Shown piece by piece: positions 9,944-40,690 of a DNA stretch of 64,000 nt. The translations under genes and the position numbers were made by a program. The notes beneath the pieces are model-generated. The model worked only from the letters and a program-made list of their open reading frames with translations, did no database searches and was not told the origin of the DNA. The stretch lies in NCBI RefSeq assembly GCF_038005985.1, contig NZ_JBBOUI010000001.1, positions 3,612,501-3,676,500 of the forward strand, written 5' to 3'. This stretch comes from Solibacillus sp. FSL R7-0682 (GTDB lineage: Bacteria; Bacillota; Bacilli; Bacillales_A; Planococcaceae). The first letter of the stretch is position 1; each line of letters starts with the position of its first letter.

Positions 9944-10120
9944 TGTAAAAAACCCCTCTTCCACTAAGAAGAGGGGTTGCAAATGAGCAAGTTCGCCTCC
10001 TCTTATCTTTCAAAATGCAAAAAAGCATTTTGTAGGAAGTAGCACCTTAGTCAGTTCATCACTCACTGGTTGCCGGACATCATAGGGCCTATTCCCTCCG
10101 TCACTCTTGATAAGAGTATG
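9944..10120 (-). ncRNA. SAM-I (S-box) riboswitch with terminator
   Basis: On the minus strand the leader shows S-box landmarks in order: CTCTTATCAAGAGTG with GGAGGGA, then GGCCC, GTCCGGCAACC, AGGTGCTAC-TTCC, and the closing P1 strand GATAAGAGG. A strong intrinsic terminator follows (AACCCCTCTT paired with AAGAGGGGTT, 9951-9978, then a T-run). SAM binding is expected to favour termination before metY. The aptamer spans about 10000-10118. Confidence 0.95.
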
Positions 10121-26990: not shown

Positions 26991-27017
26991 AGTTGAATTA
27001 TAAGTTATCGCTCTTTC

Positions 27018-27611
27018 TTATTTTTTTATAATTAGTTGCAATACTTTACATACCCCTGTATGACCGATGCCTTCAATTCGTTCGACTTCGCCACTATAAA
27101 AGTGTAACCGCTCAAAATTATTTGCCCAATCTGCTAATTGTTGTTCATTATATAAATAGTCAAGTGAACGTGGACCACCTGTCTCATAATTTAATTGCCC
27201 ATCCTCATACACTTCAAGTAAAAATACCCCGCCAGACTTTATAGAAGCAATAATTTTATCTAAAACTTCGTATTGATGTTGCTTTGAAAAATGTCCAAAA
27301 ATCATAACTGCTCCATCAAATTGGTTAAGCTCTAGTTCATCTTCTATCAAATCGGTTAATTGTGTTTCTACGTGAACATCATTCGCAGCCGCTAGCTTTA
27401 GCGTCTTTTGTAAACCTTCTTTCGAATAGTCAAATGCTGTTACTTGTTTCCCTTTTTGTGCTAAAAAAACCGCATTACGTCCCTCACCTTCTGCATAGCA
27501 TGCGATACTTGTAACTTCTTTTAAAACACTTACTTGCTCTTTTAAAAAGCGATTTGGCTCGGTGCCATAAATGAACTTTTCTTCTTTAAACTTTTGATCC
27601 CATGGATTCAT
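27018..27611 (-). CDS. Class I SAM-dependent methyltransferase (TehB-like)
   Basis: A 197-residue methyltransferase. Motif I is ACYAEGEGRNAVFLAQKG (about 36-53), followed by VTAFDYSKEGLQKTLKLA. The closing aromatic strands end with GHTGVCKVLQLI. The fold and length suit small thiol or chalcogen methyltransferases such as TehB, which fits the sulfur-gene surroundings, but the substrate is unproven. It lies between cstR and trxA with its own terminator. Confidence 0.85.
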   Translation of the reverse strand: MNPWDQKFKEEKFIYGTEPNRFLKEQVSVLKEVTSIACYAEGEGRNAVFLAQKGKQVTAFDYSKEGLQKTLKLAAANDVHVETQLTDLIEDELELNQFDGAVMIFGHFSKQHQYEVLDKIIASIKSGGVFLLEVYEDGQLNYETGGPRSLDYLYNEQQLADWANNFERLHFYSGEVERIEGIGHTGVCKVLQLIIKK

Positions 27612-27642
27612 ATCGTAGCCCCCTTCTTTTTTGAGTTAGATA

Positions 27643-27680
27643 AGAAGAGCCATATACTTTTTTGTATACGGCTCTTTTTC
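27643..27680 (-). terminator. Terminator after trxA
   Basis: AAGAGCCATATAC pairs with GTATACGGCTCTT around a T-rich loop, followed by T residues. Confidence 0.8.
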
Positions 27681-27995
27681 TTATTTATATTGACGAATGA
27701 AATCGATTAAGGCTTCTTTTGGCATGAAGCCCGCTGTTTTCCCTTTTACTTCTCCGTCTACAAATACAAGTAATGACGGGATCGACATAATTTGATACTG
27801 TGCTGCTGTCACTTGGTTTTCATCTACATCAACCTTTACGATTTTCACTTCGTTTCCGATTTCTGCATCTACTTGCTCTAAAACAGGTGCAATCATTTTA
27901 CAAGGGCCACACCAAGCTGCCCAAAAGTCTACTAAAACGACGCCGTTCATAATTTCTTTTTCAAATGTTTGATCTGTTGCATGTACAATTGCCAT
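27681..27995 (-). CDS. trxA: Thioredoxin
   Basis: A 104-residue thioredoxin with the active site DFWAAWCGPCKMI (Cys about 29 and 32) and the cis-Pro loop IMSIPSLLVF. It reduces disulfides and, as known for thioredoxins, can release sulfide from protein persulfides. A sigma-A promoter carrying a CstR-type operator lies about 95 bp upstream, which is unusual for trxA and suggests that this copy belongs to the persulfide response. A general trxA may exist elsewhere on the chromosome. Confidence 0.94.
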   Translation of the reverse strand: MAIVHATDQTFEKEIMNGVVLVDFWAAWCGPCKMIAPVLEQVDAEIGNEVKIVKVDVDENQVTAAQYQIMSIPSLLVFVDGEVKGKTAGFMPKEALIDFIRQYK

Positions 27996-28083
27996 AATAA
28001 ATAACCTCCAAAAAATATTAATATTGTTCTACTTAATAACATAAAGTATGTTCACTTACTGGACCGATAATTCGGTTCTTTAT

Positions 28084-28112
28084 AGAATATACCCCTATAG
28101 GTATATTGTCAA
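28084..28112 (-). promoter_or_regulatory. trxA promoter with CstR-type operator
   Basis: On the minus strand TTGACA (28112-28107) and TATTCT (28089-28084) are 17 bp apart. ATACCCCTATAGGTAT (28089-28104) fills most of the spacer. The arrangement is the same as for cstR. Confidence 0.83.
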
Positions 28113-28206
28113 TCTATATGTTTTCTCGTAAAATTCGACCACTTGAAAAATGCTTAAAGCTGTTCAAAACAGTCTAGAATAGAAGGATTAGAAAATAAGA
28201 ACTATG

Positions 28207-28457
28207 TAAAAAAGCTGCCTTAAAACCAGATTTTAATCTGACTTTTCGGGCAGCTCCCAATAACGGGCCTTCCAAAAGGAAGAATAACTTAGAAGAAAAA
28301 TATAAAGGGTGAAAAAATTCTTTGTCTGACTTCCATCGTCAAACTTACATTCTAAATGAGGGGGTTTAGAACGCTATCCTGCGCTAACCAGCTCCTGGAG
28401 AAAAGATGGTTAGTTCAGTCTTATTTGTACTGAATTACAAATAAGTTCTTGCTATAT
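28207..28457 (-). ncRNA. Candidate Fur-regulated small RNA
   Basis: No ORF of substance lies here. Behind a sigma-A promoter with a perfect Fur box the minus strand shows a hairpin with a 10-bp stem (CTTATTTGTA / TACAAATAAG, 28420-28445), a CTAACCA / TGGTTAG hairpin (28384-28413) with TCTTTTCTCC in its loop, and a 7-bp stem (TTCTAAA / TTTAGAA, 28350-28371) presenting CCCCCTCA, a C-rich loop able to pair with ribosome sites. A weak hairpin near 28324-28344 with a following T-run gives a first possible end. A strong terminator (AGCTGCC / GGCAGCT, 28213-28255) gives a second. The layout recalls iron-sparing RNAs such as FsrA or IsrR. Alternatively part of it is the 3' UTR of the DUF4395 gene. 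Confidence 0.6.
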
Positions 28458-28462
28458 TTATA

Positions 28463-28491
28463 ATGATAATGATTATCAGTATCAATGTCAA
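28463..28491 (-). promoter_or_regulatory. Sigma-A promoter with perfect 7-1-7 Fur box
   Basis: On the minus strand TTGACA (28491-28486) and TATCAT (28468-28463) are 17 bp apart. TGATAATGATTATCA (28464-28478) is a perfect 7-1-7 palindrome equal to the Bacillus Fur consensus and overlaps the -10 box. Confidence 0.88.
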
Positions 28492-28509
28492 TAACTTTCA
28501 CTAATATTT

Positions 28510-28938
28510 TTAAGAATTTTTTAACGAACGTCGATACATAAACTGCTTCCACTGAAAATGAATAAAGCAACCAATACAGAAGCCTAGTATCGCAACAAAG
28601 GAAGCAACTGCCACCATAATCGTAAAGCTATACGCAAGTATCGGCCAGTTCATTATATAACCGATTAATCCGCCAGCTAAACAACTTGATGCAATCGTTG
28701 CATTAAATGTTTGTTGCTGAGAATCTTCAGGAATATATTCTTTCATCTCTTTTTTTAAAAATAATTTAGCAAATCGCATAATTGGATTAAACCCCGTGAA
28801 TATGCCTAGTAAATTAGCGATTAGAGGAATTGCTAAAATTAAGTAGTACCCTGTTAGCCACGTTAAAACAACAGAACTAAAAATCGTCCATTGATTCACA
28901 CGTACAAGTGGACGGGGAATCGAAATCGGTCTTGACAT
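28510..28938 (-). CDS. DUF4395 membrane protein
   Basis: A 142-residue protein with about four hydrophobic segments. The N-terminus SRPISIPRPLVRVNQWTI and the segment GFNPIMRFAKLFLKKEM are features of DUF4395, a family often found next to thioredoxin and rhodanese genes but of unknown function. AAAGGTTGG precedes the ATG. Its stop is only 18 bp before the -35 box of the small-RNA promoter, and no terminator separates them. Confidence 0.8.
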   Translation of the reverse strand: MSRPISIPRPLVRVNQWTIFSSVVLTWLTGYYLILAIPLIANLLGIFTGFNPIMRFAKLFLKKEMKEYIPEDSQQQTFNATIASSCLAGGLIGYIMNWPILAYSFTIMVAVASFVAILGFCIGCFIHFQWKQFMYRRSLKNS

Positions 28939-29052
28939 ACAAATACCAACCTTTCTTATATGTTTTGTTTATTTTAGCGTTTTTCACCTCGTTTGTGAAG
29001 AGAAATGTTATAGTAAAAGAAAATAATTATTTTTTAAGAAAAGGTGATAGTA

Positions 29053-29760
29053 ATGCCTGCACTTTCCTATGATCAAATTCGACAACTAAATTCCTACAGT
29101 ATTTTCACAGAAGAGCCGGATCGTCCGCTGTTTACACTTGCCAATTTGCATAAGGATTTTTATTTAACTGATTTCCGAAATTTAATGATGGGTGTTACGA
29201 ATGCCGCTACTGAGGCCGCAGCTATTTCGCATTTCGGCCGCCGTTACGGGATGTTTGTAGCAATGCAATTTTATATGCTTGCAACCTATGATGAGGTTTG
29301 GGATGGAAAGCCTGAAGATATTCGCTTTGCCATCATTAACGAATTTGGCATTCATACGCTTGGTATGTATATAAATGCAAATGACTTTCGTTATGTAGAG
29401 GATGAGGAGCGCGAGCGTGTTATGGCAGATCTATTATATAAAGCCTCCATCATTATTACACAGCTTCGCAAAACAACAACTATTTCTCCTCTTACTTTAT
29501 GGGAAAATATTTTTGGTTACATGCTTTGGCACTACCATACGTTGTTGGAAAATCCAGCGCTAGCAGATCGAGCCTTTGAGGATTTAGAAATGCTCGAGGA
29601 CAAAAATATATGGCGTTATTTCTCTGATAAATCGCTGTTTTTTAACTATACTGGTGGGAAAAATCCATCTCAGCTTATTAACAGCCCCGTTCGTAAAAGC
29701 TGCTGCTTCTCAAAAGACATCCCCGGATTAATGCCCTGCGGATTTTGTCCGATAAAGTGA
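29053..29760 (+). CDS. FhuF-like ferric (siderophore) reductase
   Basis: Cytoplasmic protein of 235 residues. The C-terminus reads RKSCCFSKDIPGLMPCGFCP, giving the CC-x10-C-x2-C cluster of FhuF-type proteins that bind a [2Fe-2S] centre and reduce ferric siderophores. Most of the rest is helical and aromatic rich. The start is ATG 29053, after AAAAGGTGA; GTG 29044 is in frame but lies in the ribosome site. The last codons and the stop overlap the first copy of a 78-bp repeat. A weak Fur-like A/T palindrome lies at about 29020-29035. Confidence 0.75.
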   Translation: MPALSYDQIRQLNSYSIFTEEPDRPLFTLANLHKDFYLTDFRNLMMGVTNAATEAAAISHFGRRYGMFVAMQFYMLATYDEVWDGKPEDIRFAIINEFGIHTLGMYINANDFRYVEDEERERVMADLLYKASIIITQLRKTTTISPLTLWENIFGYMLWHYHTLLENPALADRAFEDLEMLEDKNIWRYFSDKSLFFNYTGGKNPSQLINSPVRKSCCFSKDIPGLMPCGFCPIK

Positions 29761-29938
29761 AACTTCATTCAGTGGTGCTTTTTGCCACTGAGTGGTAGTC
29801 TTCACCAATCGGGCCTTTACGGGCAGTCAAGCTCTCATTTTTTACTGCCCGTTTATGCGGGATAAAGTGAAACTTCACTCAGTGGTGCCTTTTGCCACTG
29901 AGTGGTAGTCTTCACCAATCGGGCCTTTACGGGCAGTC
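29751..29938. repeat. Two 78-bp repeats, 110 bp apart, with hairpin potential
   Basis: Copies at 29751-29828 and 29861-29938 differ at two positions. Each contains a stem CAGTGG..CCACTG and the arm pair GGGCC / GGGCAG that pairs with the intervening ACTGCCCG. The first copy begins inside the last codons of the FhuF-like gene and supplies its stop. Confidence 0.9.
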
Positions 29939-29956
29939 GATGTTGGATAACATAAT

Positions 29957-29996
29957 AAAAAGCGATGCCGCATCACACAAGCAGCATCGCTTTTTA
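29957..29996. terminator. Terminator after the amidohydrolase gene
   Basis: AAAAAGCGATGC pairs with GCATCGCTTTTT. It can act in both directions. Confidence 0.8.
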
Positions 29997-31118
29997 TTAT
30001 TTACCCGCCATATTTTTTAATGTAGTCGCGACGACCTTTGAACCGTCGATTAATGCTCGATGATCAAATGTCATTTTCGGGTGATGTAAACCTGGCGCTA
30101 AATTCGCCCCTACGCCAATCATTGTCGCCTTTAGCTGAGGGTTTTTTATCGTGTAAAAATGGAAATCATCACTTCCCGGCGTAACAACAGGAGAAGCTAA
30201 TGCCTCCTCGCCAAGCGCTTCGACAATCGAACGATGTGCTACACTCGCCGCATCTATAGAGACTTCCGCGCCTGGTGTAACATCTACCCATGTCCAATTA
30301 ACATCGATTGAAAATAGCTGACCTATTTGCTTTAATCCTTTATCTATATAGCTCTGCACAAGGGCTAATACTTCATTTTTTTGTGCACGGACATCGATTG
30401 AGAAGCTCGCATTACCTGGGATAATATTAACGCTTCCCCCATCCGCCACGATCTTCGTCATTTTTGCTGAATACACTTCAGATGGATCAATATAAATATT
30501 TTTCAACATTTGCTGAATAGCAACGACAACGTCAATCGCATTATTTCCTTGATGTGGACGTGCACCGTGAGCATCAACACCTGTAATTGTACCACTTAAA
30601 AATGCTGCTGAGCCGTGGTAAATGGCTGGTGCCACCTTCCCAAGAGGCAACTCCTCAATCGGTCGTAAATGAACACCAAATAAGTACGTAACATCTTGCA
30701 TTACCCCTCGTTCAATCATTGCAAGTGCGCCCCCGCCTGTTTCTTCAGCAGGTTGGAAAATAAATCGAATACGTTTATTTAATGGCTCATTTTTTAACTG
30801 AGCAAGTGCACCTAACACCATCGACATATTCGCATCATGCCCGCATGAGTGATTCGCCTGCATAACACCGTCGACTTCTTGCCAAAGTGCATCAATGTCG
30901 GCACGAACCGCAATGACCTCGTCACCTTCACCTATTTCAGCTACAAGACCTGTAACATCCTCAAAACGTTTGTATCGTACCTGCATCGCATCTAAAATGT
31001 CGGCAATTTTCTGTGTTGTATTGTGTTCTTTCCAGCTTACCTCTGGATAACTATGAAAATAGTGAAACCATTCATAAATCATTTCTTCCGTCGACTTTAC
31101 CGCTAACATGTACTGCAC
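29997..31118 (-). CDS. M20-family amidohydrolase
   Basis: A 373-residue zinc hydrolase of the hippurate/IAA-amino acid hydrolase type. Metal-binding motifs: VRADIDALW, SCGHDANM, IFQPAEETGGGAL, and the dimerisation segment VDAHGARPHQGNNAID. The C-terminal GLHHPKMTFD carries the last His. It removes acyl groups from N-acyl amino acids; the substrate is unknown. The catalytic Glu pair (AEET) is present, so it should be active. Confidence 0.9.
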   Translation of the reverse strand: MQYMLAVKSTEEMIYEWFHYFHSYPEVSWKEHNTTQKIADILDAMQVRYKRFEDVTGLVAEIGEGDEVIAVRADIDALWQEVDGVMQANHSCGHDANMSMVLGALAQLKNEPLNKRIRFIFQPAEETGGGALAMIERGVMQDVTYLFGVHLRPIEELPLGKVAPAIYHGSAAFLSGTITGVDAHGARPHQGNNAIDVVVAIQQMLKNIYIDPSEVYSAKMTKIVADGGSVNIIPGNASFSIDVRAQKNEVLALVQSYIDKGLKQIGQLFSIDVNWTWVDVTPGAEVSIDAASVAHRSIVEALGEEALASPVVTPGSDDFHFYTIKNPQLKATMIGVGANLAPGLHHPKMTFDHRALIDGSKVVATTLKNMAGK

Positions 31119-34289: not shown

Positions 34290-35300
34290 CTACTTCACTT
34301 CATCAAAGTATCGTTGTGCACCTGGGTGTACCTCAATACCGATTCCGTCTAAGCCAGTCTCAGCTTTAATAAATGAACCTTTTGCATGACCGATTTTATC
34401 TGTGTTGTCGTAAATTGCTTTTGTCATGGCATAAACTAAGTCATCTGGAAGATCTTTCTTAACCGCTAACATCGCACCTACAGATACAGCTGGTACATCT
34501 GCTTCTAAGCCGTATGTACCTGAAGGAATGTTATCCACTGCATAGTATGGATATTTCTCGATTAGTTCTTTTGCTTTATCTGCTTCAACTGGCACGATAT
34601 AAACACCATTTGTTGCATTTAATGCCTCTACTGCACCAGTTGGGTAACCAGCCGTAATAAACGCTGCATCAATTTGACCAGATTGAATACCGTCTGTTGA
34701 TTCACCAAAGTCTAAGTTTTGTGCTTTTATATCATCCATTGTTAAACCGTGGATTTCTAATAATTGCTCAGCATTTGCGTAAGTACCAGAACCTGGTGCA
34801 CCTACTGAAACCTTTTTACCTTTTAAATCGGCAAACGATTTAATACCTGAGTCCGCTAATGTTACTAATTGAACTGTTTCAGGATATAACGCACCTAATG
34901 CGACAACAGAATCGATTGCTTTCCCGTCAAACATCATCGTTCCATTTGTTGCGTAGTAAGCAATATCCGTTTGTACGAATGCCACTTCTCCATTACCCTC
35001 TGCTAACGCTGTCATATTAGCAGCTGAAGCCTGTGACACCTCAGCAGTCGTTTTAACTCCTGTTTCAGATGTGATTAAATCTGCAAATGTACCACCTAAT
35101 GGATAGTAAGTACCTTGTGTCCCACCTGTTAACACACTCATTAACTTAACATTGCCAAAGTCTAACGCTGAATTAGTATCAGAACCATTTGTTGATTCTT
35201 CATCAGTTGATGCCGTCTCGTCGTCGGTACCACATGCAGCTAGAACTAAGATCAATACACTTATTAGCATCAAGAAAAGCCTATTTTTTGATTTGAACAT
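34290..35300 (-). CDS. TAXI-family TRAP solute-binding lipoprotein
   Basis: A 336-residue extracytoplasmic binding protein. A lipoprotein signal (hydrophobic h-region then LAAC, lipidated Cys about 23) is followed by a Thr/Ser/Asp linker. The TAXI motif GGTQGTYYPLGG is near residue 60 and the second domain begins VSVGAPGSGTYANAEQLLE. Ligands of this family are often glutamate or other carboxylates; not determinable here. It opens the operon with the DUF1850 and permease genes. Confidence 0.93.
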   Translation of the reverse strand: MFKSKNRLFLMLISVLILVLAACGTDDETASTDEESTNGSDTNSALDFGNVKLMSVLTGGTQGTYYPLGGTFADLITSETGVKTTAEVSQASAANMTALAEGNGEVAFVQTDIAYYATNGTMMFDGKAIDSVVALGALYPETVQLVTLADSGIKSFADLKGKKVSVGAPGSGTYANAEQLLEIHGLTMDDIKAQNLDFGESTDGIQSGQIDAAFITAGYPTGAVEALNATNGVYIVPVEADKAKELIEKYPYYAVDNIPSGTYGLEADVPAVSVGAMLAVKKDLPDDLVYAMTKAIYDNTDKIGHAKGSFIKAETGLDGIGIEVHPGAQRYFDEVK

Positions 35301-35597
35301 GAATAAATCCCCCTCACCGTTAGGTATGGGTTTATTTTACATACATCAATATTTAAAAGTCAAATAATATTGAAAATTAAGTAAAATATAATAGTTTTTT
35401 ATATTCTATTTTACGCTTAAATAATCTGTAAAAATACAATTTATTCTATATGTAATTTATTTGAAATAATAATATCCGAAGGTATTAATTGATTTTGTGG
35501 AATAAATAAAGCAAATTATATTATTTTGTTGATGGTGAACTAAAAGTGGAATTTAGTATATGAATATAAAAAAACTGTACTCAATATTGAGCACAGT
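35301..35597. other. A/T-rich intergenic region
   Basis: No gene is visible between the binding-protein gene and the SodC-like gene. The stretch is very A/T-rich. The likely TAXI promoter is here but no clear -35/-10 pair stands out. The stem AAACTGTACTC / GAGCACAGTTT at about 35572-35599 is a terminator shared with the SodC-like gene's 3' end. Confidence 0.5.
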
Positions 35598-40365: not shown

Positions 40366-40474
40366 CATATAATTTGACTTTTTTCTTCAAACAAGCTTTA
40401 TTGCATAAGAAAAACAGATAATATATTATAACAATAAGGCTACGTTGTACGTACGAATATTAAGTTTTAACCTT

Positions 40475-40690
40475 TATACTTATACAGGGAGTTTTACATC
40501 GAAGTTGGAATGGCGTGCCCGAGCTCTTTTGACCTTGGGATAGACAGGAATACTTTTGCGAACACCCACTTTGAGGAGTGGTGGTTTAAAACTTTCTATA
40601 ATAACTACGGCAATGTGGCTGCTTACATAAAGCGCATACCAGCAATGGTTTATGGGCACCCTCACTAGAAATGGTGAGGGTGTTTTTTTT
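40475..40690 (+). ncRNA. Structured RNA gene, apparent integration target
   Basis: No coding frame explains this stretch. It starts near a -10-like TATACT (40475-40480), has a hairpin ACCCACT / AGTGGTGGT (40564-40583), a possible closing stem GTGCCC / GGGCAC, and ends in a strong intrinsic terminator (CACCCTCAC / GTGAGGGTG, then eight T, to 40690). Its last 120 bp recur at 57215-57334. An element would integrate at such a gene's 3' end and rebuild it. The RNA class is not recognised; its 200-nt size and long-range pairing leave 6S RNA as one possibility. Confidence 0.45.
40570..40689 (+). repeat. attL-like 120-bp direct repeat, left copy
   Basis: Identical over 120 bp to 57215-57334, in the same orientation. 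The flanking bases differ immediately outside. The direct repeat GGTGTTAAATTGGTGTTAAAATT lies just inside it (about 40708-40730). Confidence 0.9.

Follow-up and report, generated by a model that had tools for sequence, protein, structure and literature searches.

The minus strand of the window, by which we mean the whole 64,000-nucleotide stretch of Solibacillus DNA analyzed here, carries the gene of a structured small RNA (sRNA) that belongs to a previously unnamed RNA family in the Solibacillus/Lysinibacillus family (Caryophanaceae). That a real structured RNA lies behind a Fur box at this locus is near certain, and judging from its sequence the RNA is likely an iron-sparing regulator. Our main reading, to which we assign a probability of roughly 0.78, is that it is a Fur-repressed, trans-acting, iron-sparing sRNA of a new family, in which the loop of the third hairpin (P3) would pair with the Shine-Dalgarno sequences (SDs) of mRNAs for Fe-S enzymes. 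With enough iron, Fur would sit on the box over the -10 element and block transcription; under iron scarcity the RNA would be made and would end at its own terminator. The P3 loop, ACCCCC(C)UCA, would then pair with the G-rich SDs (GAGGGGG) in mRNAs that encode dispensable iron-sulfur enzymes and so keep ribosomes from binding; a second contact may come from the apex of P2. The features concerned are listed in Table 1.

Table 1 Coordinates and properties of the sRNA gene, its neighbors and a predicted target gene in the window.
Feature	Position	Strand	Remarks
-35 box TTGACA	28486..28491	minus	aligned in 15/16 genus members; the row of L009 ends short of the -35 box
-10 box TATCAT	28463..28468	minus	17 nt after TTGACA
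Fur box TGATAATCATTATCA	28464..28478	minus	perfect 7-1-7; over five of the six -10 bases
sRNA transcript, ~245-249 nt	28208..28456	minus	start placed by promoter spacing, end by the terminator
Hairpin P1	28420..28445	minus	10/10 pairs with a double change in alignment A5
Hairpin P2	28379..28418	minus	carries CUUUUCUCC (28405-28397) at its apex
Hairpin P3	28347..28374	minus	CCCCCUCA loop at 28364-28357; predicted pairing site for SDs
Hairpin P4	28324..28344	minus	form found in Solibacillus; other genera lack it or have a different one
Unpaired U-rich linker with CACCC	28291..28319	minus	conserved within Solibacillus, with a similar stretch in g34 and g35
Intrinsic terminator AGCTGCC...GGCAGCT-TTTTT	28208..28255	minus	stem 28255-28249/28219-28213, then T28212-28208
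DUF4395 gene, upstream neighbor	28510..28938	minus	PF14340, 105 bits
FhuF-like gene	29044..29760	plus	TIGR03951, 44.7 bits, below the 63.85 cut-off; no Pfam match
TAXI-family TRAP solute-binding gene, predicted target	34290..35315	minus	SD GAGGGGG at 35315-35309

An earlier reading of the DNA, made from the sequence only, had described a sigma-A promoter (TTGACA-17-TATCAT) with a perfect 7-1-7 Fur palindrome over its -10 box, and both are present on the minus strand. With 11/12 matches, the promoter (28491-28463) ranks top of 23 promoter-like sites in positions 27000-30000; the same region yielded 9.5 ± 3.2 such sites after shuffling. Each RNA here has one Fur box, which was kept with no or one mismatch in 16/16 Solibacillus members. 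Outside the genus, upstream DNA was read for 56 distinct matches, and 54 of these had, at the same offset, a Fur box with at most three mismatches; the two misses were a promoterless third copy (L182) and a false hit (L314). Among random 75-nt segments of the fetched loci, about 2% contain a Fur box at three or fewer mismatches. Since the covariance models described below were built without promoter sequence, the Fur box provides an independent check on their matches. Fur binding and iron-dependent expression are what we infer from this promoter layout.

The RNA itself folds with a calculated energy of -78.5 kcal/mol, compared with -52.7 ± 4.75 kcal/mol for shuffled sequences (z -5.4), and 0/200 shuffles were as good. 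The hairpins and terminator proposed earlier were recovered as four hairpins (P1-P4) and a terminator between 28445 and 28208. Both proposed loops were found as well, one as the loop of P3 and the other at the apex of P2, where a weak inner stem (CUUUU/AGGAG) closes it in part and leaves CUCC as the fully open loop. A simple terminator scan misses the terminator because it takes loops of 3-8 only, and the loop here is long and itself folded. The other 15 Solibacillus copies have a terminator to which that of the window copy bears no relation, as though a replacement had occurred. In Lysinibacillus the RNA would be shorter, roughly 170 nt as judged by eye.

The stems of P1 and P3 vary freely, in contrast to the steady UUUCUCC of P2 and the steady C-run of P3. 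All accepted sequences that were read have UUUCUCC, and nearly all have the C-run, which forms the loop of a 10-bp hairpin; altered forms of the run occur in genus g27 (CCCCCCAU) and in L183 (CCCCCCUU). The apex of P1, AAU(A/U)CAGU, is common to Solibacillus, Lysinibacillus and near genera and absent from the distant genera g5, g6, g10, g27, g28 and g33, and hence is not invariant. The CACCC linker could constitute a further contact.

Paired positions change together across the family. In alignment A4 (MAFFT, 34 sequences), 95 cells showed double changes versus 35.3 ± 5.8 after shuffling (0/500 shuffles), and 85.5% of the cells pair, compared with at most 49% when slid. Alignment A5, which was fitted to the model and hence leans towards it, gave 211 double-change cells versus 66.3 ± 7.5 after shuffling (0/500), with double changes at 26 of its 34 pairs. 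In the genus-only alignment A3 covariation was slight, with 10 double-change cells.

A DNA search of 41 genomes detected the RNA in its own genome and in 15/15 other Solibacillus genomes (E 1e-71 to 3e-35). Out-of-genus DNA matches of 29-46 nt, one of them at the fsrA promoter of G037, were excluded from the RNA count because they covered only the promoter end of the query (positions 6-55) with Fur-box-like sequence. Covariance model R1, built from 16 genus sequences with the promoter left out, gave matches in 59/200 family genomes and 9/19 genera. Model R2 (34 sequences, P1-P3 only) extended this to 76/261 family genomes and 11/19 genera at E<=0.001, including genera g10 and g27, which were outside its training set; the other 185 of the 261 genomes gave no match with R2. 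Model R3 (41 sequences) added genera g28 and g5 with weaker matches (E 0.0018-0.086) that were backed by Fur boxes. Six genera had no accepted match in any search, and outside the RNA's own family no match was obtained among 398 class genomes, own family included, under strict filters at E<=0.001 and later, with R3, at E<=0.1. A pattern scan of an 84,980-species collection returned 28 stretches, all from Lysinibacillus, Solibacillus, Metasolibacillus or 'Bacillus ndiopicus'.

Two candidates were set aside. L314 (R3, E 0.017) was dropped, having no Fur box, and L182, a third copy in G161, is without promoter, Fur box and intact P1 and keeps P2, P3 and a terminator-like end; it is possibly a remnant or a 3'-end-derived RNA. 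Tandem pairs of sRNA copies were observed at L103, L110 and L181 (genus g32), with a Fur box before each copy scored. Rfam assigned no family to the locus at gathering score, and the seven weak matches at E<=10 were all far below their cut-offs. Elsewhere in the window lie a 6S RNA (40434-40625, plus strand; RF00013, 69.5 bits) and a SAM riboswitch (10000-10116, minus strand; RF00162, 83.7 bits).

GAGGGGG is the motif to which the P3 loop is complementary, and in the RNA's own genome it occurs 3-10 nt before an ATG 49 times, versus 16 times for a reversed control. Ten of the 49 sites correspond to a 15-mer, GAGGGGGGCTTCATG, that lies antisense to 23S rRNA, as checked for two copies, and was for that reason dropped from the target-site counts, as it was from the G146 and G100 lists. 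Of the 39 remaining sites, 25 precede an open frame of at least 40 codons. When the C-rich loop was matched against SDs, as the earlier reading had suggested, predicted duplexes of 7-11 bp were obtained; at the level of sequence, the CCCCCUCA loop has the complementarity to target ribosome-binding sites that is expected of the C-rich region of an FsrA-like RNA. The predicted pairing comprises 11 bp (-19.9 kcal/mol) at gltB, encoding the large subunit of glutamate synthase, 10 bp (-18.8 kcal/mol) at the TAXI-TRAP gene (frame 34290-35300) and 7 bp (-16.7 kcal/mol) at qcrA, encoding the Rieske protein. The 11- and 10-bp pairings use the P3 loop and its flanks and could form only if P3 opened its uppermost A-U pairs. 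Ranked by a simple duplex energy without accessibility and with a crude gene list, the TAXI-TRAP gene came first of 65 window genes (mean -7.7, sd 3.2 kcal/mol). One TAXI gene of G100 (L304) likewise has a GAGGGGG SD.

In the Lysinibacillus genome G146, 37 gene-like GAGGGGG sites were found, including those of qcrA, preT, preA, lutB, bioB and cysH, with preT named from its neighbor preA and from glutamate-synthase-type matches. Protein families were scanned for 23/25 sites in the RNA's own genome and 33/37 in G146, the others being assigned by BLAST or not scanned; of the 46 sites in G100, L304 alone was family-scanned, and the others were read by eye or BLAST-matched. The enzymes encoded by gltB, qcrA, preT, preA, lutB, bioB and cysH carry Fe-S clusters. 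Fe-S enzymes account for 2/25 of the genes with a GAGGGGG SD in the RNA's own genome and 6/37 in G146, most of the genes not encoding iron proteins, so the enrichment of iron proteins is modest and no proof; moreover, gltB and lutB do not recur in all three genomes compared. In Solibacillus (L086) as well as in Lysinibacillus G146 (L227), a DUF4256 gene is preceded by a GAGGGGG SD, and by this complementarity it is a candidate target. No partner was identified for CUUUUCUCC.

The leader of qcrA was compared across genera. The gene was found in 89/94 genomes, and 52 leaders were read, 50 from that set together with L215 and L257. The SD was GAGGGGGG in 42/42 leaders from RNA-bearing genera, a split made by genus in which several of the genomes gave no RNA match themselves, and in 7/10 leaders from genera where the RNA was not found. 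Among the latter, it was kept in g2, g4 and g8 and not kept in g3, g9 and g29. Counted by genus, the SD was kept in 13/13 versus 3/6 (p 0.02, phylogeny ignored), which is suggestive of co-selection of the qcrA SD with the RNA and is not proof. A hairpin that may present the SD in the qcrA leader is only weakly supported by folding.

The sequence-only reading took the RNA for the counterpart of FsrA and IsrR. There are likenesses to FsrA: the FsrA locus L121 has a Fur-box promoter of the same layout, both RNAs have C-rich stretches with CCCCUC, and the predicted targets here overlap the published FsrA list at gltAB, qcrA and lutABC. That list comprises gltAB, dctP, qcrA and lutABC in PMC8464778, and gltAB and lutABC are named also in PMC12871923. 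An iron-sparing role is supported mainly by this overlap, at gltB, qcrA and lutB. The FsrA target dctP, a dicarboxylate transporter, and the TAXI-TRAP gene are only loosely comparable. According to PMC8464778, FsrA-gltAB is the only FsrA pairing confirmed in vivo, and the C-rich regions are not involved in it. In contrast to these likenesses, FsrA is given a length of 84 nt there, compared with ~245 nt from promoter to terminator here, and no sequence or structure homology was detectable between the two RNAs. In the new RNA, by contrast, the C-rich stretch is the loop of a hairpin, and a fhuF-like gene is a regular neighbor, whereas no FhuF-like ORF was seen by eye among the six largest ORFs at L121.

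A covariance search with the FsrA model, which had been proposed as a check, came out negative. RF02273 gave no match in the RNA's own genome, with the B. subtilis positive control detected, and 0/200 family genomes were over the cut-off; two weak FsrA-model matches (L061 and L062) had no Fur boxes and were rejected. In the class sample of 398 genomes FsrA and the new RNA occurred in different genera, and R3 scored at most 10.6 bits (E ~1) on four FsrA loci. RF02273 detected FsrA in one genus of 146 (5/398 class genomes, strict filters), which is narrower than stated in PMC12871923, where FsrA homologues are said to occur in Bacilli, Staphylococci and Listeria. The RNA, noncoding and with a Fur box and a C-rich loop, is thus a likely counterpart of FsrA and IsrR in function, as the earlier reading had it, but it is no homologue of FsrA and forms a family apart.

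As to IsrR, PMC9410917 describes a Fur-repressed RNA, conserved in all screened Staphylococcus genomes, with several hairpins carrying C-rich loops; the new RNA is likewise genus-wide, with several hairpins and a C-rich loop, and is predicted to be Fur-repressed. IsrR acts by blocking the SDs of mRNAs for Fe-S enzymes, gltB2 among them (PMC9410917), and the same role is proposed here. The two differ in the number of elements: IsrR, as described in PMC9410917, has two Fur boxes, compared with one here, and three C-rich regions, compared with one C-run and CUUUUCUCC here. R3 gave no match outside the RNA's own family in the 398 class genomes under strict filters. The new RNA would work like FsrA and IsrR, yet we file it under neither.

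No Rfam match at the locus was obtained for RyhB/PrrF or RoxS/RsaE. PrrF is Fur-repressed. RyhB and PrrF are iron-sparing sRNAs of Gram-negative bacteria that lower Fe-S enzyme mRNAs, but in PMC9410917 they are Hfq-dependent and without a C-rich SD-binding motif. RoxS and RsaE resemble the new RNA in that C-rich regions are decisive in target binding in Bacilli, but are under ResD/Rex and not Fur, as given in PMC8464778. Text searches of the literature, in which subscription journals were mostly outside coverage, returned no paper joining Lysinibacillus with FsrA, none on a Planococcaceae sRNA with Fur, and nothing relevant on Lysinibacillus or Solibacillus sRNAs or on noncoding RNA-seq of L. 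sphaericus.

The greater invariance of the P2 apex raises the question whether the RNA, although Fur-regulated, mainly binds a protein or another RNA through CUUUUCUCC, with the C-rich loop secondary. Such a function would fit the retention of UUUCUCC in g27 and L183, both of which have a changed C-run, but we consider it unlikely, since elsewhere the C-rich loop is kept and can pair with the SDs of published FsrA-target genes. The shared Fur box layout, the C-rich motif and the overlapping predicted targets would also be expected if the RNA descended from FsrA or IsrR, by divergence or by extension within its lineage, and truly belonged to that family. We regard this as highly unlikely, on the side of FsrA in view of the failure of RF02273 in 200 family genomes, the separation of FsrA and the new RNA by genus in the class sample, the low R3 scores on four FsrA loci and the differing neighbors.

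We rate slightly lower the chance that the transcript is a cis-acting leader or the 3' UTR of a neighboring gene instead of a free sRNA. In the window, the DUF4395 stop codon lies ~18 nt before the -35 box and a thioredoxin gene follows on the same strand, an arrangement compatible with a cis-acting element. However, the RNA has its own promoter and terminator, and the downstream gene varies between loci, often lying on the opposite strand (11 loci read). DUF4395 was found at 31/53 loci and not found at 22/53, where the Fur-box promoter is kept, so DUF4395 read-through, which would have undone the earlier claim, cannot be the general source. Together with the variable neighbors, this indicates that the RNA is an independent unit. 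The FhuF-like neighbor noted earlier is conserved, adjoining 49 of the 53 long-flank loci (11 genera). The other four loci (L100, L101, L102 and L109; genus g30, Lysinibacillus) are second copies with no fhuF-like gene in the fetched flanks, which also speaks against a cis-acting element; their Fur boxes are intact, and each of these genomes holds another sRNA copy. Least probable of all is that the RNA encodes a small protein, as a plain mRNA or with a dual function. Short in-frame stretches do occur in the 172-nt cores of the 16 copies from Solibacillus, the longest being of 14-34 codons with several running off the core end, but no reading frame is conserved among the cores in position or sequence, in agreement with the absence of a coding frame noted earlier. 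In addition, the conserved change is pair-preserving, and the core indels are not multiples of three and hence speak against a coding sequence.

The reading of a Fur-repressed, trans-acting iron-sparing sRNA would make this RNA a candidate for the post-transcriptional half of the Fur response in Lysinibacillus, Solibacillus and their relatives. Iron-sparing sRNAs are known from few lineages, those named in PMC9410917 being RyhB, PrrF, FsrA, IsrR and MrsI. A covariation-backed family in 11-13 genera that has no detected FsrA homology, and whose predicted targets appear among those listed for FsrA, would be a clear example of regulatory convergence. More tentatively, and at somewhat less than even odds, we propose that the Bacilli have here invented an iron-sparing sRNA independently, which converged on the core of the FsrA regulon (glutamate synthase, the Rieske protein QcrA and LutB). 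Its pairing, possibly loop to loop, would have held the qcrA SD at GAGGGGGG in at least 13 genera, with UUUCUCC at the P2 apex serving as a docking site. The alignment is ready for an Rfam entry, and the pairing lends itself to direct testing through the conserved loops and the leader of qcrA.

The mRNAs of the nearby sulfur/heme island had also been suggested as possible targets, and support for this is weak. In its favor, the window genes at 14-28 kb (17/65) pair somewhat better with the loop (rank test p 0.036), but the best pairing in the window is that of the TAXI-TRAP gene (Table 1). Four of the best eight loop pairings belong to the 14-28 kb genes (p 0.12). One of these four is a metal-sensitive-repressor family gene (PF02583; 26520-26783, minus strand) with the SD GAGGGG, and the other three are a methyltransferase gene, a YhhN protein gene and an unnamed frame. 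The PF02583 gene lies upstream of rhodanese/DsrE-like genes, the latter named by eye.
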